A stretch of DNA of 37,111 bases from a virus, in IMG/VR virus record IMGVR_UViG_3300037540_000328, positions 1 through 37,111 of that record; one strand, written 5' to 3'. Made by a program: the position numbers and the translations under genes. Positions 5,027-35,669 of this stretch are shown in pieces. Each line of letters starts with the position of its first letter. The first letter of the stretch is position 1. The notes below the pieces were generated by a model, which saw nothing but the letters and a program-made list of their open reading frames with translations, was not told the origin of the DNA and did no database searches.

Positions 5027-7900
5027 TTGCCTAATTTAAGGAAAATGCTTCGTTCTGAAGCTGAAACTATCTTAAAAAATAAGCAAATAGGAAGAAGAAA
5101 TGATTGTACAGATTTACTGATATCGGCAAGATTTGGGGAAGATCATGTTCATCATATTTTGCCGAATCAAGCTGTAACAGATCAAATTGTAGAAGATTTA
5201 TTAGCATATACTTCAGAGGATTTTAATAAAACTTTAACTCCATCAGCAGAAAAGGAAGTTGTAATAACAGAAGAAAAAAAAGCTCCTAGTGAAGTTATTT
5301 TTCACAATAGGCAAGCTTTTGGTGATGTTCTAATGTTGACTTCAGGGGTAAGGGATTTCAAAAGTACTTATCCGAATTCAAGAATTGGTGTCCATACTAC
5401 TGCTATGCACATATGGGATAACAATCCACATATTGATCATAGCTTTAGGATGGGGTCTCTTGAAGCTAATAAAGCTACTGTTAAGGTTGGGCCGGGATTT
5501 CTTACCAATAAGTCTAATTTGTGGGATTACCATATGGCTAATTCTTTCAGATTGGATATGCAAAATAAAATGGGTCTAAAGATTAATCAGGGAGTAATCA
5601 AACCTGATATATGGTTAACTGAAGAAGAATATAACAGAAAACCTATCCTTGATGGAGCATATTGGATATTCATTTATGGTGGGGAACCCGGTTGGCCTAG
5701 TAAGCAGTATCATAGATGGCAAGAAGTAATTAATATCCTCAAAGACGATATTCAGTTTGTTCAATTGGGTGTAAAATCTCATCCATATCCGATATTAGAT
5801 AATGTCCTGAATTATGTTGGTAAGACGGAAGATAGGAATACAGGGATTAGAGACCTTTTCAATATCTTCCTTCATTCACAAGGGTCAATGGGTCTTGTAT
5901 CAATGCATATGCATCTCTCAGCAGCATTTAATAATCCATGTGTTACAGTAGCAGGTGCAAGAGAACCTGCATGGTTTACTCAATATTTTGGACACCAATA
6001 TATTCAAACGAATGGGTTTTTTGATTGTTCGGAAACTAAGTCATGTTGGGCATGTAAGCTTGAGGGATGTAGGAACCTAGTTGATTCTAAAGAAGAATAT
6101 GTTAGGACTGATCCAGTAGAAAAACAACTTTTTACTCCAAATGGGCCAATAACTAAAGGGCATAATACAAAGAAAGTTCCTAAGTGTGTTGATATAATTG
6201 ACCCTGAACAAATCGCTGATTCAGTTAGAATGTATTACAAGGGGGGAAGACTTGAATATAAAAAGAAAGTGTCTAATACATTTTTTAAAAATGTTGTAAG
6301 GGAGAAAAAGATATTTAGTATTCCTGAACCTGAAAAAATTGATAATGATCTATTAGAAAAGTTTGGGTTTAAATGGGGTGGTGGAAGTATTACTGATAGA
6401 GATTGGTTATTTCTCCTTGATATCTTTAAAACTTATAATGTCAAAACAATTTTGGAATTTGGTTGTGGTCTCTCAAGTTTACTTTTTGCAACTAAAGTTG
6501 ATAAAATTGTCACTTTCGAAACTCAACCTGGGTGGATTAAAAAAATCAAAAGTATGTGTGAAGGGGATAAGAATCATATTTTTCAATGGGATGGAAAGAA
6601 AATTGATATCAATGTTGAAGAATTTAAAGATACTAAATTTGATTTTGCTTTTGTGGATGGGCCAGCAGGTGGACAAAGTAGGGAATGGTCAACAAAATAT
6701 GCTTCTGAACTTTCTGATCTTGTAGTCATTCATGATGCAGGAAGACAATGGGAAAGAAAATGGCAAGAGAAATATCTTTCTAAAGATTTTGAAATGGTCT
6801 CTAAAGGTGGGCATCGTTGTCATTTTTGGGCAAAGAAAGAAATACATAAAGCTCAACAGAAAAAAGAAAAAGTTGAAAGACAAGTAATAATTGAAAATGA
6901 TGATAGAAAATCTTTTAGAATGATTACTACTTGTCGTGGTTTTGGTGGTTCGGAAAGATCATCTTTATTTATAATGCAAGACATGTTGAACAGAGGTTAT
7001 AGAGTTGAGTTAATTCCTACAGGTAATATTTCAGGAGAGTATCAGAAAAATATTCCACAAAATGTTATTATAAGACCTTGGAATGATATGAAAGAACCTG
7101 TTGATTTATTAACTTTCTATTGCAGTGATACTATCTGGAATTATAAAAAACCTCAATATTTAGAAGTAATGGATGATCTAAACTGTAAAAGAAAAGTGAT
7201 GATTCTGAACTATCAACTAGGTGGTGGGGGGGAAGTGACTTGGACTCAAAATTGGGATTTGTATATGTTCCTTAATTCAACTAAGAAAGCAGAGTTGTTA
7301 AAAAGGTTAAAAGATGCAAAAACTAAAGTCCTTCCCCCTCCTACTGATTTAGATGCTTTCTTTAAAGTTCAAATTGACTATCCTGATAAACATAAGTCAA
7401 CTGATAATTTGAGACTTATCAGACATAACTCACAAAAAGATGCAAAACATCCTGAATATACTAATGAGCTAATAAGTCAAATATTAGATGAGATTGATAC
7501 TTCAATTGAATTCTTTTATATGCCAGCTAGGTCTACAACATTTGATCATCCTAATGTACATAAATTCAAAGTAAATCAAATTCCTGTACCTGAATTTTTA
7601 TCTCAAGGGAATTGCTTTTGGTATCATCTCCCCCCAGGTTATCAGGATCAAGGGCCAAGAGTTATTATTGAAGCTATGGCATGTGGCTTGCCTTGTATCG
7701 GGGATAATAGCTATGGGGCAAAGGATAGGATAACAGAAGATACCGGATGGTTGTGTGATGATGTGAGTGATTATATAGAAGTTATAAAAGAGATAAATAG
7801 TGATATAGCAGTATTAAAAGAAAAAGGAAGGAATGCAAGATCAAGGGCAATGGCTGAATTTGTTCCTACCAGATGGGCAGATTGTATCATAGGAGAATGA
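5027..7900 (+). CDS. Three-domain glycosyltransferase-methyltransferase-glycosyltransferase
   Basis: A 957-residue fusion. Residues 1-85 form a helical N-terminal segment. Residues 86-400 are a GT9/heptosyltransferase-like domain: FGDVLMLTSGVRDFKSTYP, later GGEPGWPSKQYHRW and the LVSMHMHLSAAFNNPCVTVAG donor site, then a Cys cluster. Residues 440-610 are a class I SAM methyltransferase-like domain (ILEFGCGLSSLLFA, FDFAFVDGPAGG). Residues 630-957 are a GT4-like domain (FGGSERSSLFIM, then GPRVIIEAMACGLPCIG). The start is TTG 5027 with AGGGAG 10 nt upstream; ATG 5045 is the alternative. It opens the sugar operon and probably adds and caps two sugars. Confidence 0.82.
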   Translation: MPNLRKMLRSEAETILKNKQIGRRNDCTDLLISARFGEDHVHHILPNQAVTDQIVEDLLAYTSEDFNKTLTPSAEKEVVITEEKKAPSEVIFHNRQAFGDVLMLTSGVRDFKSTYPNSRIGVHTTAMHIWDNNPHIDHSFRMGSLEANKATVKVGPGFLTNKSNLWDYHMANSFRLDMQNKMGLKINQGVIKPDIWLTEEEYNRKPILDGAYWIFIYGGEPGWPSKQYHRWQEVINILKDDIQFVQLGVKSHPYPILDNVLNYVGKTEDRNTGIRDLFNIFLHSQGSMGLVSMHMHLSAAFNNPCVTVAGAREPAWFTQYFGHQYIQTNGFFDCSETKSCWACKLEGCRNLVDSKEEYVRTDPVEKQLFTPNGPITKGHNTKKVPKCVDIIDPEQIADSVRMYYKGGRLEYKKKVSNTFFKNVVREKKIFSIPEPEKIDNDLLEKFGFKWGGGSITDRDWLFLLDIFKTYNVKTILEFGCGLSSLLFATKVDKIVTFETQPGWIKKIKSMCEGDKNHIFQWDGKKIDINVEEFKDTKFDFAFVDGPAGGQSREWSTKYASELSDLVVIHDAGRQWERKWQEKYLSKDFEMVSKGGHRCHFWAKKEIHKAQQKKEKVERQVIIENDDRKSFRMITTCRGFGGSERSSLFIMQDMLNRGYRVELIPTGNISGEYQKNIPQNVIIRPWNDMKEPVDLLTFYCSDTIWNYKKPQYLEVMDDLNCKRKVMILNYQLGGGGEVTWTQNWDLYMFLNSTKKAELLKRLKDAKTKVLPPPTDLDAFFKVQIDYPDKHKSTDNLRLIRHNSQKDAKHPEYTNELISQILDEIDTSIEFFYMPARSTTFDHPNVHKFKVNQIPVPEFLSQGNCFWYHLPPGYQDQGPRVIIEAMACGLPCIGDNSYGAKDRITEDTGWLCDDVSDYIEVIKEINSDIAVLKEKGRNARSRAMAEFVPTRWADCIIGE

Positions 7901-7901
7901 A

Positions 7902-8138
7902 ATGGATGATGTTGATAAACTTATAACTATAAGTGAATGCATCCATAAATGTCCTTTTTTTGGAACTTCAATGGATGGAATGGAATGTAATAATCCTTAT
8001 TTTGATGATAAAGATGCTTATGAAAATATGATTATATCACAAGAAGATAGAGGGAGTATTCCTAAAAAATGTCCATTAAGAAAAAAAGTATATACAATTG
8101 TTTATATTGCTTCTATTGATTTCTATAATGGGGAATAA
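7902..8138 (+). CDS. Small Cys-rich protein, 78 aa
   Basis: It has a compact motif CIHKCPFF, then MECNNP, then KKCPLRK: four cysteines spaced like a zinc or Fe-S site. It lies one base after the three-domain enzyme and overlaps the following methyltransferase start, so it belongs to the sugar operon. The function is unknown; a metal-binding helper of a neighbouring enzyme is possible. Confidence 0.65.
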   Translation: MDDVDKLITISECIHKCPFFGTSMDGMECNNPYFDDKDAYENMIISQEDRGSIPKKCPLRKKVYTIVYIASIDFYNGE

Positions 8139-8722
8139 TGATGGAAGATATAAGAAGTTCCTATAAAGAAAATAATTATGGAATGGTTTTAAGAGCTTTA
8201 GTATTAGCTCATAAACCTAAATTAGTTATAGAGATAGGTGTTTTAGATGGTTATTCTACATTTTATATTGCTCATGCTTTAAGATTTAATCGTAATAGAG
8301 GGATTGTAAGTCAATTTTTTGCTTATGATCTTTGGGAAGAATATGATTATAAACATGGAAATTTTCAAGAAGTTGAAGAAATGTTGTTACTACAAGGTTT
8401 GGATAAATTTGTAAATTTAAGTAAAGGAGATGCTTTTGAGGTTGTGGAAGTATTTGATAATGGAACAATTGATTTTCTTCATATGGATATATCCAATGAT
8501 GGTGATAAACTTATTAGGACTTTAGATGTATGGGGGGATAAACTTTCTGTTGATGGAATTATTGCTTTTGAAGGTGGTTCTAAAGAAAGAGATGAGGGAT
8601 GGATAAAAGAATATAATTTCAGACCAATTAGGGATGTATTATCTACTTCTCTTATGGATAATTGGATTTTTCAAGTGTTGACTCCATTTCCTTCAATGAC
8701 TTTATTATGGAAAAAGAAATGA
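8138..8722 (+). CDS. Class I SAM-dependent methyltransferase-like protein
   Basis: This 194-residue protein has a Rossmann start LVIEIGVLDGYSTFYIAHAL (motif I), a FFAYDLWEEY strand-2 acidic position and TIDFLHMDISNDGDK at motif IV. That is the pattern of TylF/Methyltransf_24-type sugar or small-molecule O-methyltransferases. It overlaps its neighbours by one base upstream and ATGA downstream. The substrate is unknown but the context is sugar modification. Confidence 0.75.
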   Translation: MMEDIRSSYKENNYGMVLRALVLAHKPKLVIEIGVLDGYSTFYIAHALRFNRNRGIVSQFFAYDLWEEYDYKHGNFQEVEEMLLLQGLDKFVNLSKGDAFEVVEVFDNGTIDFLHMDISNDGDKLIRTLDVWGDKLSVDGIIAFEGGSKERDEGWIKEYNFRPIRDVLSTSLMDNWIFQVLTPFPSMTLLWKKK

Positions 8723-9390
8723 GAGCAATAGATGAATATCATAAATTATATGAGAAAAGCCGAATATGGGAAAAAAATACTTGGTTTGGAATTCCCATGT
8801 GGAAACTTCCCTTTGATGCTTTTGTAATTCAGGAATTGATTGTAGAGATTAGACCTCAATATATTATTGAGACAGGAACGGGGCATGGTGGTTCTGCTAT
8901 GTTTTATGCTGCTATCTGTGAGTTATTGGGGGAAGGTGGGGTAATAAGCATAGATATTGATGGAACTAAAAGAAATTCTAATAAATGGGGTAAATATGAA
9001 TGGGAAGACAGAATAACTTTTTTGCATGGTGGAAGTACTAATCCATTGATTATTGAGGAAATATATAAAGTTACCGGATGGAATGACCTTGAAAGAAGAT
9101 ATTATAACAATGGGGGATTAGTAATATTAGATTCATGGCATACGAAAGAACATGTTCTTAAAGAAATGGAATTATATTCAGAATTTGTTGATGTTGATAG
9201 TTATATGATTGTTGAAGATACTCATGTTAATGGACACCCTGTACCTTGGGAGTATGGGGAAGGGCCATATGAAGCAGTTGAAGAATGGTTAAAAATTAAT
9301 AAAGATTGGGAAGTAGATTATGAATGTGAGAAACATTTAATGTCATTTAATCCGAAAGGATATTTAAAGAGAATAGAAGGGGGAAAATAA
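8719..9390 (+). CDS. CmcI/rhamnosyl O-methyltransferase-like protein
   Basis: A protein of 223 residues with IIETGTGHGGSAMFYAAICELLG (SAM motif I), VISIDIDGTKRN, LVILDSWHTKEHVLKEMELY and YMIVEDTHVNGHPV. This order of motifs marks the cephalosporin hydroxylase/rhamnosyl O-methyltransferase family, where the DSxHT and EDTxxNGHP blocks hold the metal. An upstream start at 8662 is possible, but ATG 8719 overlaps the previous stop as ATGA and fits coupling. It probably O-methylates a sugar. Confidence 0.82.
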   Translation: MRAIDEYHKLYEKSRIWEKNTWFGIPMWKLPFDAFVIQELIVEIRPQYIIETGTGHGGSAMFYAAICELLGEGGVISIDIDGTKRNSNKWGKYEWEDRITFLHGGSTNPLIIEEIYKVTGWNDLERRYYNNGGLVILDSWHTKEHVLKEMELYSEFVDVDSYMIVEDTHVNGHPVPWEYGEGPYEAVEEWLKINKDWEVDYECEKHLMSFNPKGYLKRIEGGK

Positions 9391-9392
9391 AA

Positions 9393-9602
9393 ATGGGAAA
9401 GAGAAAATTTTCAGTAGTATTGTTTCCAAATCCAGAAAAAAAGATCATGACCTTTTCTGTATCTGCTGATACACTTGATGTTGATCCTAGAGGGAATGCA
9501 ATATTCAAAGATGATGGTAGAATAACGGGCATTGTATCTAATCCTGCATATCAAGTGATAAGAGAATTGGTGGAAATAGAGATAATTAAAAAGGACAAAT
9601 AA
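9393..9602 (+). CDS. Hypothetical protein, 69 aa, in sugar operon
   Basis: A small beta-type protein (KFSVVLFPNPEKKIMTFSVSADTLDVDPRGNAIF) with a short terminal helix. GAAGGGGGAAAA upstream is the ribosome site. Its TAA overlaps the ATG of the aminotransferase. I see no motif; it is kept as a real gene for its ribosome site and coupling. Confidence 0.65.
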   Translation: MGKRKFSVVLFPNPEKKIMTFSVSADTLDVDPRGNAIFKDDGRITGIVSNPAYQVIRELVEIEIIKKDK

Positions 9603-10699
9603 TGATACCGATGTTCAAAGTTGGTATGAATCCTGAAATTGATGATGAGTTATTAAAAGTCATTCATTCGGGGTGGATTGGACAGGGAGAAAAAGTTAAA
9701 GAACTTGAATCAAAATTGATGAAACATTTTGATCATCCAAGAGTTTTGGCTTTATCATCAGGTACACATGGTTTAACTCTAGCTCTTAGACTTTTAGGTG
9801 TGGGAGTAGGAGATGAGGTTATTTCGACTCCATTGACTTGTACGGCTACTAATATGCCTATTCTTCAGCAAAGAGCAGATATTGTTTGGGCAGATGTTGA
9901 AAGAGATTTTAATATTGATCCTATGGCAATTAAATATGCAATTACTGAAAAAACAAAGGCTATTGTAGTCGTGCATTGGGGGGGGTATCCTTGTGATATG
10001 TCGGAGATAGGTCAACTATCTCATGATTATAATATTCCTGTCATAGAAGATTGTGCTCATGTTTTTAATGCCACATATAAAGATCATCAAATTGGAGATA
10101 CTAAATGGTCTAGGTTTGCAATGTTTTCTTTTCAGGCAATCAAACATTTGACTTCTGTTGATGGTGGTGCTCTGTGTATAGAAGATTATAATGATTATAA
10201 AAGAGCAAAATTGTTAAGGTGGTATGGGATTGATAGAGAAAGTGAAAGAACTGATTTCAGGTGTGAAGAAGATATCAAGGAATGGGGATATAAGTTTCAC
10301 ATGAATGATGTGTGTGCAACAATAGGGCTGAATAATATTTCTCTTGCATATGAGAACGATAAAAAAGCTCAAAATAATGCAAGGTACTATGAAGCTCAAT
10401 TAATACCGTTTGATGGAATTGAGATACCTCAAATAGCAGAAGACAGAGAATCATCCTATTGGCTTTTTACTATGTTAGTAGAAAATAGGTCTGAATTTTG
10501 TCTTATGATGAGTAGTAAGGGAATTTCAGTTTCAAGAGTTCATGAGAGAAATGATAAACATACTTGTTTTGGAAAGTTTAAAAAAGACCTTCCGGGCTTA
10601 GAATCCATTATAGATAATATGATATGTATTCCTGTAGGGTGGTGGGTGACTAAGGAGAATCGTGAGTATATAATTGATTGTATAAAAAGGGGATGGTAA
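9602..10699 (+). CDS. DegT/DnrJ/EryC1-family sugar aminotransferase
   Basis: This PLP enzyme transfers an amino group to a nucleotide-linked keto-sugar. The protein has the usual length (365 aa). Visible are SSGTHGLTLALRLLGVGVGDEVI (phosphate-binding region, residues 52-74), the PLP-ring site VIEDCAH with Asp150, and the Schiff-base lysine in FSFQAIKHLTSVDGGAL (Lys181). The C-terminal half is slightly short. It supplies an amino sugar or a related branch for the neighbouring glycosyltransferases. Start ATG 9602 overlaps the previous stop. Confidence 0.9.
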   Translation: MIPMFKVGMNPEIDDELLKVIHSGWIGQGEKVKELESKLMKHFDHPRVLALSSGTHGLTLALRLLGVGVGDEVISTPLTCTATNMPILQQRADIVWADVERDFNIDPMAIKYAITEKTKAIVVVHWGGYPCDMSEIGQLSHDYNIPVIEDCAHVFNATYKDHQIGDTKWSRFAMFSFQAIKHLTSVDGGALCIEDYNDYKRAKLLRWYGIDRESERTDFRCEEDIKEWGYKFHMNDVCATIGLNNISLAYENDKKAQNNARYYEAQLIPFDGIEIPQIAEDRESSYWLFTMLVENRSEFCLMMSSKGISVSRVHERNDKHTCFGKFKKDLPGLESIIDNMICIPVGWWVTKENREYIIDCIKRGW

Positions 10700-10701
10700 A
10701 T

Positions 10702-11364
10702 ATGGTTATTGTAACAGGACTAGGTAGATGTGGAACAAGTATTTTAACTAAATATTTGGGGGATGTTGGGTTTGGAGTAGGTAGGAATATAAATTGGCAT
10801 AAAGAAGCAAGGGCAGGGTATGAGCTTTCTACTGCTTATTCTATCAATAGGGAAATGTGGAATAACTATTGTAAGGCAGGTAAACCGATAGATTTGGATT
10901 TTGATTATCGTGGGCCATATTGGAAGTGCAAGTATAAAGAAGCTATATTCAATGTAGATAAAGATGAGGAAAAACAAGGAAAGGTTGAAGTTATTAAAGA
11001 CCCTAGATTTACGTGGAATCCTGCACTCATTGAAGCATGGTGGACTGTTAGACAAGATTTGAAATTGATAATTTGTCATAGAGATATAAAGTCAATCTAT
11101 GATTCAAGAAAATCATTACCACCTCAATATGATGATCCGAAAAGACTTGAGTTACCTGAATATAAAACTGATTTTGCTGATTTTTATACTAAAGTATTAC
11201 AATTAGAAATTCCTTATGTGACTTTATTTTTTCCTAAATTTTTACAAAATTTTCATGATACATGGCTTGTGTTAGAAATTATTGGATTAAGTCATAATTA
11301 TGATAAAGGGAAAAAAATATGGCATGATATGATGGATAGGACGTTATTGGATGGAAGAACATAA
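10702..11364 (+). CDS. Sulfotransferase-like P-loop protein
   Basis: The N-terminus MVIVTGLGRCGTSILTKYL carries the GxxRxGTS loop that binds the 5'-phosphosulfate of PAPS in sulfotransferases. LIICHRDIKSIYDSRKSLP is the second, 3'-phosphate-binding region (HRD...S). Length is about 220 aa. I choose ATG 10702, nine bases after AAGGGGA and after the previous stop; a TTG at 10678 is a weaker option. It could sulfate a sugar in this operon. A related P-loop kinase cannot be excluded. Confidence 0.7.
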   Translation: MVIVTGLGRCGTSILTKYLGDVGFGVGRNINWHKEARAGYELSTAYSINREMWNNYCKAGKPIDLDFDYRGPYWKCKYKEAIFNVDKDEEKQGKVEVIKDPRFTWNPALIEAWWTVRQDLKLIICHRDIKSIYDSRKSLPPQYDDPKRLELPEYKTDFADFYTKVLQLEIPYVTLFFPKFLQNFHDTWLVLEIIGLSHNYDKGKKIWHDMMDRTLLDGRT

Positions 11365-11959
11365 GCAATTAAAAAATTTATACGAACAAGTTATAAGTGG
11401 AAAATTTAAATGGGATAGATGGGGCTTATTAAGTGTCTTGTCAGATTATGTTCTTTACTATACTAGTGGAGATTTAGTAGAAATTGGATGTGGTGAATCT
11501 TCAATTTACTTTTCAAAATTAGCAGAAAAATATAATAGAATATGTTTTCATTGTGAGTATTCTAGGAGTGGTGTAGAGAATATGAAGAATACCAAAGGCT
11601 ACTTTGGTAAAAATTCTAAAGTCTATACAAGCAAATCAGATGATTTTTTTAAAGATGTAAACCTACCTCCAATTGCTCTAGGTTTCATAGATGGTGATCA
11701 TACCTATGAGCAAGTCAAAAAAGATTTCCTTAATCTTTCCAATTATGTTGTGAAGAATGGATTTATTTTTCTTCATGACACCTATCCACCTGATAAATCA
11801 TGGACTATACCTTCAAAATGTGGAACTGTTTATAAATTAAGACAGGAATTAGAAACATGGGTAGGAGTTTTTGAAGTTTTCACATTTACACGTTCAGCCT
11901 TTGATGTGGGTCTCACAATAGTAAAAACTCTTTCCAGTCGAAATCAAAGAAATTTTTAG
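11351..11959 (+). CDS. Class I SAM-dependent methyltransferase
   Basis: This protein of 202 residues contains LVEIGCGESSIYFSKLAEKY (SAM motif I), an acidic strand-2 position (FHCEYSRSG) and IALGFIDGDHTYEQVKKDFLNL, the FIDGDHxYE signature of Methyltransf_24. FIFLHDTYPP follows as the metal/substrate loop. It overlaps the sulfotransferase-like gene by 14 bp. It is probably an O-methyltransferase acting on a glycan intermediate. Confidence 0.85.
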   Translation: MEEHKQLKNLYEQVISGKFKWDRWGLLSVLSDYVLYYTSGDLVEIGCGESSIYFSKLAEKYNRICFHCEYSRSGVENMKNTKGYFGKNSKVYTSKSDDFFKDVNLPPIALGFIDGDHTYEQVKKDFLNLSNYVVKNGFIFLHDTYPPDKSWTIPSKCGTVYKLRQELETWVGVFEVFTFTRSAFDVGLTIVKTLSSRNQRNF

Positions 11960-11971
11960 ATTGAGGTAAAA

Positions 11972-13021
11972 ATGGTTGTTAAGAATAAGAACTATGTTCT
12001 TAATAATCCACTGAAGGAATCAAATATTGCTATCCTTGTTACGTCATATGCTGGTCATTTGATGTTCTTGATGTATGCCTTGTCAAGGTATATGGAAACG
12101 GGAAAGTACGTTATATGCTCATATGACAGCTTTGGAAAGGCAGATATTCCTAGTAATATTTGGAAAATTCCTCATTCGTGGGTTTTTAAGCATATGACAC
12201 ATGGGGCAGGAAAGAGAAATGGATGGTTATGGGATATTCTCTATGCAGCAGGAACAATCATTCTTTTTGATGATATAGAATATATATTTACTGTTAATAG
12301 TGATTGTATTTGGGATAAACCGAAAAATGTTGATGCTATTATAAATCTTTTAGGGAATGCTGATTTAATGAGTGCATCTTCAAATGGAACTATTCATACT
12401 TGTAATGTAGTTTGGAAAAGAAGATGTTTTCTTGATTTTGTCTCTTATATCAAAAACAAATTATGGAATAATAGACCCGAATCATATTCACCTGAAGTAT
12501 TATTGAGAGATTTTATATTAGAAAATAAATATGTGAATAAGACTGCTCCTATTCAACCTATATTTCCTAAAAATCATTTCTATGAAGGTAGGGTAGATCA
12601 TTATAGCTCATACAATCAGGATTGTACTTGGAAAAATATTTTAGGCTATAGAAATCTTGGTGCTGAACATAAAGCATCTTGTCTTGAGCACTTAGAACCT
12701 GTTCCAAAAAAATATATTGATATAAGAAATAAGGGGCAGTTTTTTAGTCAACATGAGAGAAATACATTATACTTTTATTATGTAGGGGGAGATAGAAGAT
12801 ATTTGTATAAATATTGGGCAGAGGGAGAAGATTCTTATTGGAATAGAAGATATTATCCTATTGAATATTACGGTCAAAAGATTTTATCTGATGATTCTCA
12901 AAGAAAACAGTTAGGGCCACCTAGTGAAAGATTAGGTCATTTTGACAGATGGAAGTATAATTCATTTATTTTGAAAGATGATGAATATGATTCTAAATGG
13001 AAAGCAGTAATTGATAGATAA
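11972..13021 (+). CDS. GT-A-type glycosyltransferase-like protein (paralogue 1)
   Basis: A protein of 349 residues with a nucleotide-sugar-type N-terminus (IAILVTSYAGHLMFLMYALSRY), a DxD-like site IFTVNSDCIWDKPKN near residue 110 and GNADLMSASS. The C-terminal block has ILGYRNLGAEHK. The same sequence of blocks occurs in the next gene, so the pair arose by duplication. I infer a glycosyltransferase of the sugar operon; donor and acceptor are unknown. GAGGTAAAA upstream is the ribosome site. Confidence 0.68.
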   Translation: MVVKNKNYVLNNPLKESNIAILVTSYAGHLMFLMYALSRYMETGKYVICSYDSFGKADIPSNIWKIPHSWVFKHMTHGAGKRNGWLWDILYAAGTIILFDDIEYIFTVNSDCIWDKPKNVDAIINLLGNADLMSASSNGTIHTCNVVWKRRCFLDFVSYIKNKLWNNRPESYSPEVLLRDFILENKYVNKTAPIQPIFPKNHFYEGRVDHYSSYNQDCTWKNILGYRNLGAEHKASCLEHLEPVPKKYIDIRNKGQFFSQHERNTLYFYYVGGDRRYLYKYWAEGEDSYWNRRYYPIEYYGQKILSDDSQRKQLGPPSERLGHFDRWKYNSFILKDDEYDSKWKAVIDR

Positions 13022-13033
13022 GGAGAATTTGTT

Positions 13034-13975
13034 ATGACTATTACAAGAAAATTTGTAAATGATTTAAAAAAAGGGTCACAAAAAAATCACTATGCATATA
13101 TCCTAAGAGATATGATGGCAAATGATGAATGGGCAATGAATGCTTTTAAAGATGTGGGAGTCTTATTGACTTCTCATCCAGGAAATCGACCCTTTCTTAA
13201 AGCTTCCTTAGAGTCTCATAAAAAGTTAGGATTTTGGACTACAGTTGTATATGATAATTATTTTGATCCTAAAAATAAGTCAATATCCTATAAGCAAGTA
13301 ATGCCTGAAAGAGATGTGTTTGATATGGCAGATACATTTATGATACCTCATCATCAGACATGGGGGGGAGTTCTTTATCCTTATTTTTGGTGTTTGTATT
13401 TTGGACTTCATACAATGGGATCATTTAAATATGTGTTTTGTAGTAATGGGGATTGTGTTCTTGAAAAACCTGAAGGATTTCCTAAGATCATGGAGATGTT
13501 AGGAGATGCTGATATTATGGGATGTGGTTATGAAGAAAATAATGGAAGACAACTTTTCAATACTACGTCTTTTATTGCTAAGACAAAGGCTATTCAAGCT
13601 ATAATGGTTCATTTTAGAAATCATTTAATTGGGATAGATACTTATGAAAAATATGCTGAAAGACTAGGGAATACTGAAGGCAGATTTGCAATAGCAATTA
13701 AAGAATTGGGTTTGAAAGTCAAGAAAGTTCCGGTTAATCCAGTGAATACACAAATAGCTGCACCTGGGGGTACATGGTATGATATTCTTGGATTTAGACA
13801 TATTCATGCTGAATGGAATACAGCTCATAGAAGGAAAAAAATTCCACCTGAAGCAAAGTATATTGATGATAGATATATGAGAGGGAAAGTGGAGCTAGTT
13901 AAGAAGTATTATAATGAAACGGATGAAGTAAAAAAACATCAAATTTTAAAAAAATGGTGGGGAGTTAGGCAATAA
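13034..13975 (+). CDS. GT-A-type glycosyltransferase-like protein (paralogue 2)
   Basis: A protein of 313 residues. VGVLLTSHPGNRPFLKASLESHKKLG opens a GT-A-like fold. YVFCSNGDCVLEKPEGFPK and MLGDADIMG match the NSDCIW/GNADLM blocks of the preceding protein, and ILGFRHIHAEWN matches ILGYRNLGAEHK. It is the last gene of the sugar operon. A late promoter follows at 13998. AAGGAGAA is its ribosome site. Confidence 0.68.
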   Translation: MTITRKFVNDLKKGSQKNHYAYILRDMMANDEWAMNAFKDVGVLLTSHPGNRPFLKASLESHKKLGFWTTVVYDNYFDPKNKSISYKQVMPERDVFDMADTFMIPHHQTWGGVLYPYFWCLYFGLHTMGSFKYVFCSNGDCVLEKPEGFPKIMEMLGDADIMGCGYEENNGRQLFNTTSFIAKTKAIQAIMVHFRNHLIGIDTYEKYAERLGNTEGRFAIAIKELGLKVKKVPVNPVNTQIAAPGGTWYDILGFRHIHAEWNTAHRRKKIPPEAKYIDDRYMRGKVELVKKYYNETDEVKKHQILKKWWGVRQ

Positions 13976-27583: not shown

Positions 27584-28213
27584 ATGCTTTCCAATAAAAA
27601 AATAAGAATGCTTGAATTGCTGGATAAACAAGTGGGAACATGTCAGAAATGTTCATTAAGTCCTAATGGTACAGCTATTCCACATTGGAGTCCTGCATCT
27701 AAATATGTGATAATCGGTGAAGCTCCGGGGTATAATGAAGTTAGAAATAAAACTCCTTTTGTTGGTGCTGCTGGAAAAATATTAACTGATTTATTAGGAG
27801 AAGTTGGTTTTAAGAAAAATGAGTTTCTTATAATAAATTCGGTACAGTGTAGACCTGTAGAAGGCAATAAAAATGGTAAACCTAATCTAACTCAACTTGC
27901 AGTATGTCAAAATTATATACGAAAGTATATAACTGTTATAAATCCTGAAAAAATACTTTGTTTGGGAAATTATGCAAAGTATATTTTTACAGAGGATATT
28001 ACTGGAATTTTAAGGCAAAGGGGAGTATTTAAAACTTTATCATTAAGAGAAAAAGAATATCCTGTTTTGTTTACAATTCATCCTGCTTATTGCATTTATA
28101 ATGAAGAAGATGGAGTTCCAATGTTACGAGAAGATATTAAACTTTTTAAAGATACAGAATTTGAAAAGGAAAATGAGTGGTTATTTACAGAAGATGAGTT
28201 TAAAATTTATTAA
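27584..28213 (+). CDS. Family 4 uracil-DNA glycosylase-like protein
   Basis: It removes uracil from DNA, starting base-excision repair. The protein of 209 residues has the family 4 features: GEAPGYNEV with PFVGAAG (motif 1 region, residues 45-64), HPAY (166-169) and four cysteines (20, 23, 89, 108) placed as in the [4Fe-4S]-binding UDGs. It begins directly after the helicase stop and ends one base before tRNA-Leu(UAG). In a phage it may protect the genome or act on host uracil-DNA. Confidence 0.9.
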   Translation: MLSNKKIRMLELLDKQVGTCQKCSLSPNGTAIPHWSPASKYVIIGEAPGYNEVRNKTPFVGAAGKILTDLLGEVGFKKNEFLIINSVQCRPVEGNKNGKPNLTQLAVCQNYIRKYITVINPEKILCLGNYAKYIFTEDITGILRQRGVFKTLSLREKEYPVLFTIHPAYCIYNEEDGVPMLREDIKLFKDTEFEKENEWLFTEDEFKIY

Positions 28214-28291
28214 GGGAGTATAGCCGAATTTGGTATAGGCATATGATTTAGGATCATAAATTTGTAGGTTCGATTCCTACTACTCCCACCA
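28214..28291 (+). tRNA. tRNA-Leu(UAG), short variable loop
   Basis: Acceptor GGGAGTA/TACTCCC, D stem GCC/GGC with GG in its loop, anticodon stem TATGA/TCATA with loop TTTAGGA (anticodon UAG), T arm GTAGG-TTCGATT-CCTAC, discriminator A and encoded CCA. Only 5 nt (AATTT) lie between the anticodon and T stems; bacterial tRNA-Leu normally has a long arm there. It starts one base after the UDG stop. Confidence 0.92.
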
Positions 28292-28295
28292 AAAA

Positions 28296-28472
28296 ATGAA
28301 AAAGCAGAAAAGAAGACAAAGAACTGTTTATAAATGTCCAATATGTAAAGGGCCAGTTATATTACAATTAATAAATCCACATACGATGTTTGTTTGTTGT
28401 GAGTCATGCAATGCAGTTTATGATTATTATGATCCATTTGATGAGAAAGAAAGTTATAATTATGATATATGA
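28296..28472 (+). CDS. Zinc-ribbon protein between tRNA genes, 58 aa
   Basis: A very basic start (MKKQKRRQRTVYKCPICKG) and CCESCNAVYDYYD give a CxxC...CxxC zinc ribbon, then an acidic Tyr-rich tail. It starts five bases after tRNA-Leu(UAG) and its TGA overlaps the first two bases of tRNA-Leu(UAA). No ribosome site is seen. The intact ribbon and exact fit between tRNAs support coding. Function unknown; a nucleic-acid-binding role is possible. Confidence 0.65.
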   Translation: MKKQKRRQRTVYKCPICKGPVILQLINPHTMFVCCESCNAVYDYYDPFDEKESYNYDI

Positions 28473-28548
28473 GGGTGTAGCCGAACTAGGTATAGGCAAG
28501 AGACTTAAAATCTCTAATTTGGTGGTTCGAATCCACTCATCCTCACCA
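28471..28548 (+). tRNA. tRNA-Leu(UAA), short variable loop
   Basis: Acceptor GAGGGTG/CATCCTC (one G-U), D stem GCC/GGC, anticodon stem AGAGA/TCTCT with loop CTTAAAA (UAA), variable loop AATTT, T arm GGTGG-TTCGAAT-CCACT with a terminal G-U, discriminator A and encoded CCA. Same short-variable architecture as its neighbours. Confidence 0.92.
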
Positions 28549-28549
28549 A

Positions 28550-28627
28550 GGGAATGTAGCCGAATTAGGTATAGGCATTGGATTCAAAATCCAAAATTTG
28601 AAGGTTCGACTCCTTTCATTCCCACCA
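28550..28627 (+). tRNA. tRNA-Leu(CAA), short variable loop
   Basis: Acceptor GGGAATG/CATTCCC, D stem GCC/GGC, anticodon stem TTGGA/TCCAA with loop TTCAAAA (CAA), variable loop AATTT, T arm GAAGG-TTCGACT-CCTTT, discriminator A and CCA. One base after tRNA-Leu(UAA). Confidence 0.92.
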
Positions 28628-28642
28628 ATTCCCACCAATTCC
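28618..28642 (+). repeat. Duplicated tRNA 3' end
   Basis: The last ten bases of tRNA-Leu(CAA), ATTCCCACCA, are repeated once directly and followed by ATTCC. It looks like a slipped duplication or the trace of a lost tRNA copy, just upstream of the polymerase ribosome site. Confidence 0.85.
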
Positions 28643-28656
28643 TATAAGGAGAAAGG

Positions 28657-31326
28657 ATGTTTAAAAATATATGGTATAATACAAAAAAATCACAAATCCA
28701 TCTATGGGAGCAAATCAATGGTGAAGATTTATATACTGAAATTCCTTGGACACCATATGTTTTCTTGCCTTCCAAAAAAAAGAATGCTGATGCTAAAACC
28801 ATTTTTGGTGGTTTAGTTAAGAAGCAAACTTTTCCTACCTACTATGCATATCATAATTTTTTAGAAGAAAAAAATAATCATAATGTTTTTGAAAATAGAG
28901 CTAGAAGTGAAATTCAATATCTTGCAGAAAGATACTATGATATACCGGATGATGAGCTATATGTACCCAATCTGAAAATCTATTATATAGATATTGAAGT
29001 AATTACGGGAGAAGGATTTCCAGATTTTAAAGACCCTAAAGACCCTGTAGTACTTGCATCAATTAGAAATGGATTAACAGGAGAAACTATTACATTTGGA
29101 TATGATGTTTATGGATTAAAAAATTATGAAGGGAATATGCAAAATTTAAAATATTATGCATGTAATAGTGAAGAAGATTTAATGAGATATTTTTTTAATT
29201 ACTTAAACAAATATCCTTGTGATGTGATGAGTGGTTATAATATATGGGCTTTTGACTTGCCTTATATGGTTAATAGGGCAAAGGTTTTATGGGGGGAAGA
29301 AAAAGGCAAAGACATTTATAGTAGAATGTCACCTATTAATGTAGTTAGTATATGGAAACAAAATTTGTCTGAATCTCTCAATATTGATATGGGGGGAGTG
29401 ACAATTTTAGATTATTATAATGTCTACAAATGGTATGGAAAAAATCTTGAAAGGTATACTCTTGAGTATGTTAGTCAAGTAGAACTAAAGAAAGGAAAAT
29501 TGGAAAATCCATATAATTCTCTTAATGAATTGGCTGAAAAGGATTGGGATAAGTTTGTTGACTATAATGTGATAGATTGTGAACGGGTAAATGATCTTGA
29601 AAAACAGCTTGGATATATTAGGATGATTCAGGCAGTAAGTCTTTTATGTAAATCACCAATGAAAAATTATAATGCTCAAACCCAATTAATTGAAGGGTTA
29701 ATGTTGACATATTTTAGGAGGAATAATCTATGTGCTCCCCATTTTGCAGGTGGAAACAAAGAAGAATTTAAAGCTGCATGGGTCAAAGAACCTGATAAGG
29801 GATTGCATGAGTGGATTGTAGATGTGGATATAACATCAAGCTATCCATCTCATATTATTACAATGAATATGTCAAATGAAACTTTTAAGGGTAAGATTAT
29901 CAGACTTCAAGAAGAAGAAATCATTTCTTGTACAAGAAACAGGAAGTTTCCATCATTCGAAATGATGAAGGAAGTTAATGGTGATGATGATTGGAAAACG
30001 GTTAAATTTGATGAATCTAATCTTGATAAGTTTAACCTTGCTCTGAAAAAAGGGTTGATAGCTATATCTCCAAATGGTTCTGTTTTTTCGACTAAAAAAG
30101 AAGGAGTGGTTGCTAAAGTTGAAAAGAATGTATTTTTCAAAAGAAAAGAGGTTAAAGACAAAAGGTATGAATATGGGATGAAAGCTGATGCATGTGAAGA
30201 TGGTTCAGATGAGCAAAAGAAATATAAAGAACGGGAAAAAGAACTTAATTCTTTGCAGTTAGCTCTTAAGGTTATGATGAATGCTTTTTTCGGTATCCTT
30301 TCAGTTCCTTATTCAAGGTACTTTAACGTGTACATTGCTGAAGCTATTACAGCAGGGGGAAGGCATACCATCAAATCAGGGGAAATGTTCTGTAATGAGC
30401 TTCTGAATAGCCCTAATAAGGCATTATTAGATATATTGACTGATCTAATGGCAGATCAAATTCCATCAAAAAATAAAGATTATGTGAAGTATATTGATAC
30501 AGATTCTCTTTTTGTTGGGTTGGGGGAATGGATAAAGGACAGTGGTGCTTCTGTATGGGATGAGTTGGATGATAATGAAAAAATTGATATCATCAAAGAT
30601 ATTTCTGGTATTATGGAAAAATATATTGATGATCGGATTTATAATGAAATCCAGTTAGGAGATTATAATTCACAAGTTCATGATTTTAAGATAGGATTCA
30701 AACAGGAAATTATTGCTAAGACTGCTCTTTTCGTTAAGAAGAAAAAATATGCTTATTGGTTGTTAGATAAAGAGGGAGTACCAAAAAATGATATAAAAGT
30801 TACTGGTCTTGAAATTGTTAGGTCTGAATCTGCTGAAGCTATAAGACCTAGATTAAAAGAAATCATGGAAATGATCATGAAGCAAAAGGATGATAATGAA
30901 CTTTCTAAGAGTATTAGAAAATTTAAAAAGGAGTTGATTATACTAAAACCTGAAGAATTAGCTGCAAATATTGGTATTAATAACATCAAAAAGTATTTAA
31001 ATAGTGGTTTACCAAAAAAAGGTACACCTTGGCATGTAAAAGGAGTCTATGGGTATAGACTCCTTTTAGGTGAACTTGGGTTAAAGGATAAATATGAGGA
31101 TATCAAAGAAGGTCTTAAAGCCAAAGTAGTTTACATCAAAAAGAATCCTTATAATGTCGAAACAATTTCATTTTACGATTGGCCTGAAGAATTCAATACT
31201 TTAATACAATTTGATCCAAGTATTATGGTTGATAAGTTTTTCATCAAGAAAGTACGATTATTACTTGAACCGATTGGTAAGGAACAACTAATTGATGTAG
31301 ATAATGCTTTTAAAAGTTTCTTTTAA
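28657..31326 (+). CDS. 43: gp43-type family B DNA polymerase
   Basis: The replicative polymerase with 3'-5' proofreading. Length 889 aa (T4 gp43 898). Exonuclease motifs: Exo I YYIDIEV (Asp112, Glu114), Exo II GYNIWAFDLPY (193-203), Exo III Tyr303-x3-Asp307. Polymerase motifs: A DITSSYPS (391-398), B LKVMMNAFFG (537-546), C YIDTDS (612-617). All catalytic residues are present. A strong AAGGAG site precedes ATG 28657. Its 3' end overlaps a minus-strand gene by 4 bp. A perfect 13-bp hairpin lies inside the reading frame at 31038-31067. Confidence 0.97.
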   Translation: MFKNIWYNTKKSQIHLWEQINGEDLYTEIPWTPYVFLPSKKKNADAKTIFGGLVKKQTFPTYYAYHNFLEEKNNHNVFENRARSEIQYLAERYYDIPDDELYVPNLKIYYIDIEVITGEGFPDFKDPKDPVVLASIRNGLTGETITFGYDVYGLKNYEGNMQNLKYYACNSEEDLMRYFFNYLNKYPCDVMSGYNIWAFDLPYMVNRAKVLWGEEKGKDIYSRMSPINVVSIWKQNLSESLNIDMGGVTILDYYNVYKWYGKNLERYTLEYVSQVELKKGKLENPYNSLNELAEKDWDKFVDYNVIDCERVNDLEKQLGYIRMIQAVSLLCKSPMKNYNAQTQLIEGLMLTYFRRNNLCAPHFAGGNKEEFKAAWVKEPDKGLHEWIVDVDITSSYPSHIITMNMSNETFKGKIIRLQEEEIISCTRNRKFPSFEMMKEVNGDDDWKTVKFDESNLDKFNLALKKGLIAISPNGSVFSTKKEGVVAKVEKNVFFKRKEVKDKRYEYGMKADACEDGSDEQKKYKEREKELNSLQLALKVMMNAFFGILSVPYSRYFNVYIAEAITAGGRHTIKSGEMFCNELLNSPNKALLDILTDLMADQIPSKNKDYVKYIDTDSLFVGLGEWIKDSGASVWDELDDNEKIDIIKDISGIMEKYIDDRIYNEIQLGDYNSQVHDFKIGFKQEIIAKTALFVKKKKYAYWLLDKEGVPKNDIKVTGLEIVRSESAEAIRPRLKEIMEMIMKQKDDNELSKSIRKFKKELIILKPEELAANIGINNIKKYLNSGLPKKGTPWHVKGVYGYRLLLGELGLKDKYEDIKEGLKAKVVYIKKNPYNVETISFYDWPEEFNTLIQFDPSIMVDKFFIKKVRLLLEPIGKEQLIDVDNAFKSFF
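31038..31067 (+). other. Perfect 13-bp hairpin within polymerase gene
   Basis: AAAAGGAGTCTAT, loop GGGT, then its exact complement ending TTTT. It lies within codons for KGVYGYRLLL, about 260 nt before the stop. It looks like a terminator without a full U-run and may be an mRNA structure. Confidence 0.75.
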
Positions 31327-32377: not shown

Positions 32378-32791
32378 CTAACACTCCTTTATCTTATTTT
32401 GCTTTATAAAATATACTGTTTCTTCAATTTTTGAATCTATAAAATCATCAAAATTATTTACACTTTTCTTTAAAATAATTCCAGTAGATTTTGGTATTTG
32501 GGTTTTAATGTTATTAAATACAAGTTTTTTTATCTTTATTGCTTCTTCTGATGTAATTTTACCATCTGATGCAAATTCTTTTATTGCTTGCTCTGCTCTT
32601 ACTACTGCTCCCTTTGTAATTTTATCAAATTGGTTAAATGCAGTGTCAATTGTTTGATTATCTGTTTTACTTTTTGTCCACTTTCTTAATTCATTTAATA
32701 GCCAAGTTGCTATGACTCCAATTGCAGTTATTAACATTGGAACTATTAATGCCATTGCTTGAGTCACTATTTGACTTGTAATTTCATTCAT
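32378..32791 (-). CDS. Holin-like membrane protein (LLH-type)
   Basis: A protein of 137 residues with one N-terminal hydrophobic helix (ALIVPMLITAIGVIATWLL, about residues 13-31), then a charged helical body with AEQAIKEFASDGKITSEEAIKIKKLV. This matches the small phage holins of the LLH type, with a GKIT..EA turn. A holin would form lesions for lysis. AAGGA is its ribosome site. It follows the amidase-like gene in the same transcript. Confidence 0.6.
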   Translation of the reverse strand: MNEITSQIVTQAMALIVPMLITAIGVIATWLLNELRKWTKSKTDNQTIDTAFNQFDKITKGAVVRAEQAIKEFASDGKITSEEAIKIKKLVFNNIKTQIPKSTGIILKKSVNNFDDFIDSKIEETVYFIKQNKIKEC

Positions 32792-32801
32792 GATTTTATC
32801 C

Positions 32802-33347
32802 TTAGTATATTTTTATTCTTGGTTTATATATTCCAAGATTGTCGAATTCCCCCGGTTTTAATGCTTTACCTTGTTTTTTTAGTATACCGGACTCTTGTAA
32901 TACCCATTGAGCAAATTCAGAGCAGAAGCTATGTTTTTCAACGTCTACACTAACTTTTCTATACATTTGTCTGAATAATGATAGATAGTCATATCTTAAT
33001 TCATCTGTTCTTCCTTCAGCTAAGAGACAAATACATGCTACTTCATCCCTGAATTCATTGAATTCATCTTTTAAAGAGTACCAATATGCTGATCCTTTGT
33101 AGTTTTTTAATCTAGTTGATAGTAGATTCAGTTCGATTCCTGCATTTAGAGCTTCCATAATGAATCTTCTATCTTTAATATTTTTGAATTCATCGACACA
33201 CCATAAAAGAGCAGTATGATTAACGTCTTTTTTTGTGAAAAAACGAATCATTTTCCCTATTACTGAAAAGGTAGAAAACTCTATTAGGTCTCCATTGTCC
33301 ATCAAATGACGATATATCAAATATTGATCTAATTTTATTTTATCCAT
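32802..33347 (-). CDS. Permuted papain-fold amidase-like protein (YiiX/NlpC type)
   Basis: A protein of 181 residues with NGDLIEFST (residues 18-26), DVNHTALLW with His44, and HSFCSEFAQWVLQESGI with Cys142. The order His-then-Cys is that of the permuted YiiX-like branch of NlpC/P60 papain-fold enzymes. It could cut peptidoglycan cross-links or amide bonds. It overlaps the lipoprotein by 13 bp and precedes the holin-like gene. It is probably part of a lysis cassette, though a host-modifying hydrolase is possible. Confidence 0.68.
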   Translation of the reverse strand: MDKIKLDQYLIYRHLMDNGDLIEFSTFSVIGKMIRFFTKKDVNHTALLWCVDEFKNIKDRRFIMEALNAGIELNLLSTRLKNYKGSAYWYSLKDEFNEFRDEVACICLLAEGRTDELRYDYLSLFRQMYRKVSVDVEKHSFCSEFAQWVLQESGILKKQGKALKPGEFDNLGIYKPRIKIY

Positions 33348-33859
33348 ATGTCTAGCCTTTTGACTTCTTGTACAAGATCATCAATGCTTGATAATACCAG
33401 TATTGTATCATCTTGATCAATTATTTCATTTTGTGGAAGCTGTACTATCATATTACCTAATAAAAGGATTTGTGCTCCTACCATTTTATTTATTTTGGTG
33501 AATTGTTCTAAAGCAATGCTTTGGAGTATACCAAATGTTATTCCTGCTTTAACACGGTCTCTTACATAATTTGCCCATGCTTCAAATTCTTCGAATGTAT
33601 ATCCTTCCAATACTAAGCCTTCTTGGGAGACTACTTCTAATCCTCTGTGTAATACACATGGATCAAGTTGATACTCTTTTTCTAAATTACAAATATAACT
33701 TGTTCTACCTGCTTGTCTGCTTTCATTGCAAAATTGAGATAGCTCAATTTTTGAACCATCTGGCTTATCAACAATACATGGAGTCATTTTTGTTTTTATT
33801 GCTGCACATGACAGTAAAACTAAGAGTACTATTATTAACATTATACTTTTTCTTTTCAT
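33335..33859 (-). CDS. Lipoprotein, probable lysis-cassette member
   Basis: I start at ATG 33859, which has AGGAGAAAAA before it; the longer frame to 33898 would lack this. MKRKSIMLIIVLLVLLSC gives a lipoprotein signal with lipobox LLSC and Cys18. The mature part contains several Cys (CIVDKPDGSK, QFCNESR, CNLEKEYQLDPC) and helical segments. It heads the amidase/holin transcript. A spanin-like or envelope role is possible but unproven. Confidence 0.62.
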   Translation of the reverse strand: MKRKSIMLIIVLLVLLSCAAIKTKMTPCIVDKPDGSKIELSQFCNESRQAGRTSYICNLEKEYQLDPCVLHRGLEVVSQEGLVLEGYTFEEFEAWANYVRDRVKAGITFGILQSIALEQFTKINKMVGAQILLLGNMIVQLPQNEIIDQDDTILVLSSIDDLVQEVKRLDIWIK

Positions 33860-33879: not shown

Positions 33880-33887
33880 TATTTATA
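33880..33887 (-). promoter_or_regulatory. T4-like late promoter, minus strand
   Basis: TATAAATA on the minus strand, 20 bp upstream of the lipoprotein start 33859. It would drive the minus-strand operon 33859-31323. It is divergent from the plus-strand boxes at 33924-33937. Confidence 0.65.
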
Positions 33888-33923: not shown

Positions 33924-33937
33924 TATAAATATAAATA
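33924..33937 (+). promoter_or_regulatory. Tandem overlapping late promoters
   Basis: Two TATAAATA boxes (33924-33931 and 33930-33937) overlap by two bases. They give two starts about 6 bp apart upstream of the REC-PAS gene. Confidence 0.7.
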
Positions 33938-33977: not shown

Positions 33978-34904
33978 ATGATAATTCCTGAAAAAATTAA
34001 TGTGTTGTATATAGAAGATGATGAACAAAATGCTGAATTAATATATTCATTTCTATCTACTTCAAAAATCACTAAGTTTAATGTAATTCATAAAAATACA
34101 TTAGAAAAAGGTCTAAATTACCTTAAAAAAGAGTGTAGAATAGAAGAATTAATGCATAAGTGTGAAACAGACGTTATTCTTCTTGATTTAGTACTTCCTG
34201 ATAGTACATCAGGATTAGACACTTTTAAGTTAGTTTTAGCTCAATGTAATTGTATTCCTATTGTTGTAGTATCTGGTTATGAAGAAATAGCATGTCAATG
34301 TGTTAAACTAGGAGCACAAGATTATCTTTATAAACCTGAATTTAATGCTGGAACTCTTGTTAGATCATTAAAATATGCCATTGAAAGACGTAAACTAATG
34401 TCCAATTTAGAAGAAAGTGAAAAAAGATTTAAATTACTATCTGAAGCATCATTTGAAGGGGTAGTGATATCTAAAGGTGGTGTAATAGTTGATATTAATA
34501 AACAATTTGCAGATATAATTCAATGTTCACAGGAAGATTTAATCGGACAAAAAGTATGGAAATATGTTGCTCAAAAAGATATTGATTTAGTTAAAGATAA
34601 TGTAAAAGCAAATTATGAAGAAGTATATGAGCACACTGCAATAAAAAAAGATGGTACTGAATTTCCGGTAGAGATTCATGGAAAGACATTACCTAATGGC
34701 TTAAGACTGACAGCAGTAAGGGATATGTCAAGATATAAAGAAGCAGAGGAAAATTTAAGGAAAAAAGAAGAAATTATATTTAATGAGCTTGAAATCAAAA
34801 TACATCAGTGGAAAAGTGAAATAACGGGAAGGGAATATGAAAAACTAGAAATGATAGATAACCAGATATCATCTCTTTCCAATGAAGTACATGGAGCAGA
34901 TTAG
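33978..34904 (+). CDS. Receiver-PAS signalling protein
   Basis: This 308-residue protein has a response-regulator receiver domain (residues 7-135) with its full catalytic set: acidic pair Asp14/Asp15, phospho-acceptor Asp70 in ILLDLVLPD, Ser99 and Lys119 (YLYKP). A PAS domain follows (about 145-260, ending in a VRDMSRYKEAE segment typical of PAC regions), then a 40-residue coiled coil. There is no kinase or DNA-binding output. I choose ATG 33978 with GGTGGAGAAA; GTG 33957 is a weaker start. Phosphorylation and ligand binding should be possible. Its target is unknown. Confidence 0.88.
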   Translation: MIIPEKINVLYIEDDEQNAELIYSFLSTSKITKFNVIHKNTLEKGLNYLKKECRIEELMHKCETDVILLDLVLPDSTSGLDTFKLVLAQCNCIPIVVVSGYEEIACQCVKLGAQDYLYKPEFNAGTLVRSLKYAIERRKLMSNLEESEKRFKLLSEASFEGVVISKGGVIVDINKQFADIIQCSQEDLIGQKVWKYVAQKDIDLVKDNVKANYEEVYEHTAIKKDGTEFPVEIHGKTLPNGLRLTAVRDMSRYKEAEENLRKKEEIIFNELEIKIHQWKSEITGREYEKLEMIDNQISSLSNEVHGAD

Positions 34905-34906
34905 AT

Positions 34907-35437
34907 ATGGATAATGTTGAATTGATGGTCAAGCTATTTGAGACATTAAAAGAGTCTTCAGACAAGAGTGAGTCTACTTTAAGAAAATTAATAGAACAGC
35001 AACATTCTTTAATTAGTTTGATTGAATATATGCCAGTTAAAGAATTACATGAAGCTTTGAAAGATCATAGCAAAGTTTCATCTATTGAAATAGGTACATG
35101 TACTGATACCGTAAATTTAACATCGGATTCTATACTTGAAAAAGTTAAGATAATTGAAAATAAAATAGGAAAAATGATTCTTGTGGTAGTAGTAGCCTTT
35201 GCTGTTCTTTCTATGGGATACTTAATAGGAAGAATGACATTGGAAAAAAGTGTAATGGAACAACAAGGTAGTGCAGCAGGGCATCAGGAAATAATTGATT
35301 CAGTCGAAGAATTAAATGCTGCTCTTAAAAGATCAATAGAAAAAGAATTTAGTAACATAAGAAAAGAAATGGCTATACATCATAAAGAATCTGATGAAAC
35401 AATAAGAAAAGAAATCAAAAAAGTAAATCCAAATTAA
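34907..35437 (+). CDS. Membrane protein with coiled coils, 176 aa
   Basis: It has a soluble helical N-terminus, one transmembrane segment around residues 90-108 (MILVVVVAFAVLSMGYLIG) and a C-terminal coiled coil (SVEELNAALKRSIEKEF). It follows the REC-PAS gene by two bases, so co-transcription is likely. It could be a membrane partner of that protein, or a virion membrane-interacting protein. No family is recognised. Confidence 0.65.
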   Translation: MDNVELMVKLFETLKESSDKSESTLRKLIEQQHSLISLIEYMPVKELHEALKDHSKVSSIEIGTCTDTVNLTSDSILEKVKIIENKIGKMILVVVVAFAVLSMGYLIGRMTLEKSVMEQQGSAAGHQEIIDSVEELNAALKRSIEKEFSNIRKEMAIHHKESDETIRKEIKKVNPN

Positions 35438-35446
35438 TTAAATTTA

Positions 35447-35454
35447 TATAAATA
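35447..35454 (+). promoter_or_regulatory. T4-like late promoter
   Basis: TATAAATA lies only nine bases before ATG 35463, predicting an almost leaderless mRNA for the leader-bearing gene. Confidence 0.55.
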
Positions 35455-35462
35455 TTAATGAT

Positions 35463-35669
35463 ATGAGACAACTTATAAATAGAATAGATAAATACTTGTC
35501 GATACAAGAAAAAAATGAAGCAATTTCTCTGTCTTTAAAATCCAATAGTGATCTAAAGGATATTATTGAAATAGTTAGAAATTCTGATGATAGAGATAAG
35601 ACCCTTTCTATGTTTAATGAAGAAGTAAAAGAACAGATTCATAAATTAATTGATGGGGGAATATTGTAA
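35463..35669 (+). CDS. Leader-bearing protein, 68 aa
   Basis: It starts MRQLINRIDKYLSIQEK, a shared-leader copy, and continues as a helical, acidic protein. No Shine-Dalgarno is visible. It is the first gene of the right-hand leader-bearing cluster. Head-interior role inferred. Confidence 0.65.
   Translation: MRQLINRIDKYLSIQEKNEAISLSLKSNSDLKDIIEIVRNSDDRDKTLSMFNEEVKEQIHKLIDGGIL

Follow-up and report, generated by a model that had tools for sequence, protein, structure and literature searches.

What does a phage do with a response-regulator receiver (REC) that is joined to a PAS domain and encoded among its late genes? The locus that raises this question lies in an IMG/VR virus record, analysed here as one stretch of 37.1 kb (37,111 nucleotides; the window), which its gene content identifies as a fragment of a T4-like phage. 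The T4-type markers include a gp43-type polymerase (28657-31326), a DnaB-like helicase, and homologues of UvsW and UvsY. The polymerase is only ~28% identical to those of named phages; its 51 relatives with 47-100% identity are all uncultivated. That the locus arose as an assembly artefact is ruled out by an independent record (L003), which is 99.985% identical to the window over 6.7 kb. A further record, L002, has the same gene order and encodes a REC-PAS protein 85% identical to that of the window. Elsewhere in the window, three tRNA-Leu genes (28212-28628; anticodons TAG, TAA and CAA) lie between gene 27584 and the polymerase, and the ORF that overlies them (28390-28647) is probably spurious; a tRNA-Pro gene is found at 530-605.

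Our answer, to which we would give a probability of about one half, is that REC-PAS and the membrane protein encoded directly behind it constitute one late, two-protein signalling unit that acts on an envelope process. Below, we describe the two proteins, their expression and their surroundings, and weigh this proposal against its alternatives.

The REC-PAS protein

The gene begins at ATG 33978, with GGAG just 5' of it; both the start codon and the Shine-Dalgarno sequence are kept in L002, and an alternative upstream GTG (33957) falls outside the conserved stretch. The parts of the protein are as follows.

33978-34904, plus strand: REC-PAS gene, 308 amino acids, defined by its Pfam domains and conservation
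33978-34343, plus strand: receiver domain, residues 1-122 (PF00072; D14, D15, D70, S99, K119)
34344-34451, plus strand: linker helix continuing receiver alpha5, residues 123-158 (conserved motif RSLKYAIER; helical in the model)
34452-34721, plus strand: PAS domain, residues 159-248, the variable part of REC-PAS (PAS_9; 12-19% identity between lineages)
34722-34901, plus strand: conserved C-terminal helical tail, residues 249-308, the proposed docking part

Both domains score above the curated Pfam cut-off (Response_reg, PF00072, E 7e-11, residues 9-127; PAS_9, E 7.6e-9, residues 161-249), which bears out the description of a receiver fused to a PAS domain in an earlier note on this DNA. That note also called the receiver intact on the basis of Asp70, Ser99 and Lys119. 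These residues are indeed present, and with the acidic E13, D14 and D15 beside D70 the active site has all of its catalytic residues. The third statement, that there is no output domain, is correct in that scans of REC-PAS against Pfam and NCBIfam found no DNA-binding, kinase or cyclase domain behind the receiver; nor was a cofactor motif recognised in the PAS domain. It overlooked, however, the conserved C-terminal tail, with its invariant W278 and D294-I297 region, and the constant membrane partner. The protein might better be read as one whose output runs through the tail and this partner.

Comparison of the window with L002 gives a dN/dS of 0.34 for REC-PAS, indicating purifying selection. 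The L002 gene, conserved in other respects, is interrupted in its PAS part by a single in-frame TAA (6538-6540, codon 184), and dN/dS downstream of this codon is still 0.23. The TAA may reflect a recent loss, a sequence error or a truncated receiver product.

An AlphaFold2 model with five sequences as input has a mean pLDDT of 70 (75-90 in most of REC, 50-76 in PAS and tail); a single-sequence model, with a mean pLDDT of 41, was discarded. In the five-sequence model an uninterrupted helix (124-158) leads into the PAS domain, and two tail helices (250-280 and 286-304) are predicted with low to middling confidence. The top PDB matches found by Foldseek were 6oap (a REC-GAF dual-sensor kinase) and 6zxb (the diguanylate cyclase DgcR), for which whole-chain TM-scores of 0.36-0.38 mean that the match is sound for the REC-helix part alone. 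REC-PAS resembles both in that REC alpha5 extends as a long coiled helix toward the next domain, and differs from them in having no kinase or cyclase domain. Foldseek matches in a viral structure library were to phage and giant-virus receivers and kinases.

A constant membrane partner

The gene that follows REC-PAS encodes, as the earlier note stated, a membrane protein, which crosses the membrane once.

34907-35437, plus strand: partner membrane protein, 176 amino acids, following REC-PAS in seven phages
35171-35236, plus strand: membrane span of the partner, approximately residues 89-110 (hydropathy peak at residues 90-108)

The predicted topology comprises a coil-like cytoplasmic N-terminal half, the single span and a periplasmic C-terminal part; the charges weakly favour an N-terminus inside. 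An Rz-like spanin would have an N-terminal span with a periplasmic coil and would match a spanin family. The window protein has a weak PHROG match to spanins (E 0.0048), which was not repeated in L065, L069 or L075, and so large a cytoplasmic half is not typical of spanins; we no longer favour the Rz-like reading.

When 32 related records were searched for receivers, one more full-length REC-PAS homologue (29% identical) came to light, and the gene behind it encodes a protein homologous to the 34907 membrane protein (34% identical). Further scans added the pairs of L067, L068, L069 and L075. The order REC-PAS then membrane protein holds in seven of seven phages (the window, L002, L065, L067, L068, L069 and L075). 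The spacing of the two genes, from an 8-nt overlap to a 3-nt gap, suggests that they are translationally coupled. The module is missing in many relatives and is thus accessory.

The case of L075 bears on how the pair is inherited. Its polymerase is 25% identical to that of the window, its protein has the arrangement REC-PAS-PAS, and no gene other than the pair is shared with the window in 12.5 kb around it. Nevertheless, its REC is 61% and the cytoplasmic N-terminal half of its partner 64% identical to the window's, so that the L075 pair is nearer to that of the window than is the L065 pair, although the L065 polymerase is 57% identical. This argues that the pair moves as a unit, and transfer between distant phage lineages would be the simplest reading of these comparisons.

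Conservation within the pair is uneven. When compared with the window, the close L002 being left out, identity is 37-61% in REC, 33-42% in the linker helix, 23-54% in the C-terminal tail and 25-64% in the N-terminal half of the partner; it is 12-19% in PAS and 10-21% in the C-terminal part of the partner. This looks like an exchangeable sensor flanked by a receiver and a tail that are fixed, and the fixed contact may be the docking of the tail on the cytoplasmic coil of the partner.

Late expression of the pair

33924-33937, plus strand: two overlapping T4-type late boxes, TATAAATATAAATA, conserved in L002
35447-35454, plus strand: late box belonging to the following, separate unit (gene 35463 onward) and marking the boundary of the pair

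The tandem late promoters that had been described are real: the doubled box starts 54 and 48 nt 5' of the REC-PAS ATG (33924 and 33930), and is also present in L002 (58 and 52 nt from the start). T4 late genes are recognised by a TATAAATA box approximately 40-60 nt before the gene or unit, a spacing found in the window, L002, L065 and L067-L069; in the last four the box starts 40-42 nt before a HAD-family gene that heads the unit. The chance of a late box at such a spacing is ~0.01 or less for a random position. In L075, which belongs to a different lineage, the nearest late box is 214 nt away and there is none at the usual distance.

The idea of a late operon extending beyond the pair survives only in part. 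Expression from late boxes stands, but the genes from 35463 onward carry their own, and the REC-PAS pair is therefore probably a separate unit; we prefer a two-gene unit to a single long operon headed by REC-PAS. The box of gene 35463 lies 16 nt before its ATG and is conserved, as TATAAATATTAGTGATATG or near it, in nine phages (window 35447-35465; also L002, L008, L010, L013, L014, L016 and L038). With a T4-like start point the mRNA leader would be ~3 nt, which would make this late transcript a conserved, near-leaderless one.

Possible phosphorylation of the receiver

A workable receiver active site is kept in the window, L002, L069 and L075. In L065, L067 and L068, E-G-S replaces E-D-D and proline replaces K119, with D70 and S99 remaining; conventional phosphorylation of these three receivers is improbable. 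HATPase_c was found in none of 14 related phage records, several of which are fragments (a control was positive in 14/14 genomes), and no phage record was found to have more than one receiver. With no phage kinase found, any phosphate for the receiver would be host-derived. The earlier proposal that the phage taps a host kinase is consistent with the intact receiver and with these 14 records; the host-kinase step itself is one that we infer.

The neighbouring genes

On the other side of the late boxes, the window pair is divergent from genes for a lipoprotein-like protein, a possible peptidase and a holin-family protein, which have a late box of their own.

33880-33887, minus strand: divergent late box of the neighbouring minus-strand genes, by box match
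33335-33859, minus strand: conserved lipoprotein-like neighbour (signal peptide and LLSC lipobox by eye)
32802-33347, minus strand: conserved neighbour, PHROG 1128 by match, possibly a permuted NlpC/P60-type peptidase
32378-32791, minus strand: holin-family neighbour (phrog_36209 holin, E 9.4e-9)

In the cousin phages L008, L010, L013 and L014, the corresponding locus holds, on the opposite strand, a different late pair, consisting of a coil-TM protein and a PAS-only protein.

Minus strand, cousin locus: coil-TM and PAS-only pair at L008 8658-9584, L010 15065-16155, L013 14136-15071 and L014 15313-16241

Homologues of the lipoprotein, peptidase and holin lie behind this pair in L008 and L014. 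The genes behind it in L013 encode a DUF5675 protein and a membrane protein that matches holins only marginally (E 0.047). The coil-TM and PAS-only pair was not found in named phages. Remote-homology profiles, which were shallow, detected no homology between it and the REC-PAS pair, and it is thus a parallel or analogue, not proof.

L065 and L067-L069 have a different arrangement, in which HAD, REC-PAS, partner and glycosyltransferase genes follow one another behind one late box; methyltransferase and aminotransferase genes come further after the glycosyltransferase in L065 and L069. The window also contains a glycosyltransferase, methyltransferase and DegT aminotransferase cluster (5027-13975), within a T4-like phage, and this cluster is homologous to the genes directly behind the REC-PAS pair in L065 and L069.

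A proposed mechanism and its alternatives

In the mechanism that we favour, the membrane protein, with its N-terminus inside, would anchor REC-PAS at the inner membrane through its cytoplasmic coil, which would bind the conserved tail at the C-terminus of REC-PAS. One input would be a ligand or redox state at the exchangeable PAS domain; the other, in lineages with an intact receiver (including the window), would be phosphoryl groups supplied by a histidine kinase of the host. Dimerisation or a rotation of helices could then be passed from REC alpha5 through the linker and PAS to the tail, where the signal would change the state of the membrane partner, and the partner would act on a late envelope process, with lysis timing the likeliest target. 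The physical complex, the direction of the signal and the host kinase are all parts that we infer. Evidence for a signalling unit includes the constant order of the pair, its transfer as a unit, the conservation of REC, linker, tail and the N-terminal half of the partner, and the presence, in each of the six T4-like members, of a late box 40-58 nt 5' of the unit. Set against it are the three orthologues whose receiver is probably not phosphorylated, the lack of a late box at the usual distance in L075, and the accessory nature of a module that many relatives lack.

Lysis timing is the leading reading of what the pair targets, but a speculative one. It is suggested by the holin-family gene as divergent neighbour and by the analogous late pair of the cousins beside lysis-like genes; on the other hand, a glycosyltransferase, not lysis genes, lies behind the pair in L065 and L067-L069, and the pair of the cousins is not detectably homologous. 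Neither REC-PAS nor its partner has a Pfam or PHROG match to the antiholins RI or RIII. More tentative still is the fuller picture of a transferable sensor that reads the host two-component and metabolic state and influences lysis timing via its partner. The main rival to lysis control, which we consider unlikely, is control of surface glycans or superinfection, with the pair sensing or regulating late modification of the host surface together with phage glycan genes. This would account for the glycosyltransferase under the late box of the pair in L065 and L067-L069, and the methyltransferase and aminotransferase genes next to it in two of them, but the homologous genes of the window are ~20 kb away and L075 shares none of the glycan genes near the pair.

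The receiver could also be a phosphate sink or decoy, as the earlier note suggested, draining a host kinase and so silencing a host two-component response late in infection; the PAS domain and partner would merely position it at the membrane near the kinases. The four intact receivers and the failure to find a phage kinase agree with this. However, L065, L067 and L068 have lost D14, D15 and K119 yet keep every other part of the module, which speaks against a sink as its common function. Nor would a sink need a conserved tail and partner; we think this reading decidedly unlikely. A recent capture from bacteria, decaying and without function in the phage, might be read from the nonsense codon in L002 and the patchy distribution, yet it is very improbable given the dN/dS values on both the whole gene and the part past the L002 stop codon, the retention of the pair in seven divergent phages, and the outcome of pattern scans of contigs from 84,980 cellular species genomes, in which no close relative of the two proteins was found (such scans need short conserved peptides, and distant relatives could be missed). 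Least probable of all is that REC-PAS, made late and encoded just upstream of the head-type genes p35463-p36906, is packaged in the virion and acts in the next cell, as the earlier note also proposed. Those genes are preceded by a late box of their own; in L065 and L067-L069 the pair lies on the strand opposite to genes of the p35463-p36906 type; and REC-PAS is coupled to a membrane protein.

Relation to known systems

In a tblastn search with REC-PAS, named phages yielded no match at 1e-5; at looser limits the matches were to generic receivers only, many of them in bacterial-looking contigs. Among the open-access papers searched, none was found that describes a phage REC-PAS accompanied by a constant membrane partner. 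REC-PAS regulators are common in archaea; those without an output domain are known mainly from methanogens, where they are expected to act by dimerisation and protein-protein contacts with partners described as unknown (PMC5847659). Like the phage protein, they carry one or two PAS domains behind REC and lack a classical output (PMC5847659); the phage protein differs in being phage-borne and late, in its conserved C-terminal tail and in the membrane partner gene that constantly accompanies it. Phage-encoded receivers are also known, such as the CheY-like CDS-30 of the Alteromonas phage V22 (PMC7289586), which is likewise a receiver domain in a myophage genome but for which no PAS, tail or membrane partner is described. 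PIT4 of the Pseudomonas phage LSL4 is, similarly, a phage protein acting on host two-component systems (PMC10714779); it is the product of an early gene that affects host systems, whereas REC-PAS is late and is itself a receiver. In T4 lysis inhibition, the antiholins RI (periplasmic) and RIII (cytoplasmic) (PMC8385771, PMC11413866) offer an analogy only, with phage proteins on both sides of the membrane relaying a late signal to the holin; no sequence relation was found, and the T4 proteins have neither REC nor PAS. What appears to be new here is the constant membrane partner of a phage REC-PAS, archaeal REC-PAS regulators and phage receivers being already known.

With its constant partner gene, the phage version offers a small system in which one could trace the output of a REC-PAS protein. 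The pair looks like a signalling link between the state of the infected cell and the envelope. If this is true, the phage would be connecting a receiver of its own to the kinases of its host late in infection, and some of its relatives would have dropped the phosphate chemistry yet kept the unit.
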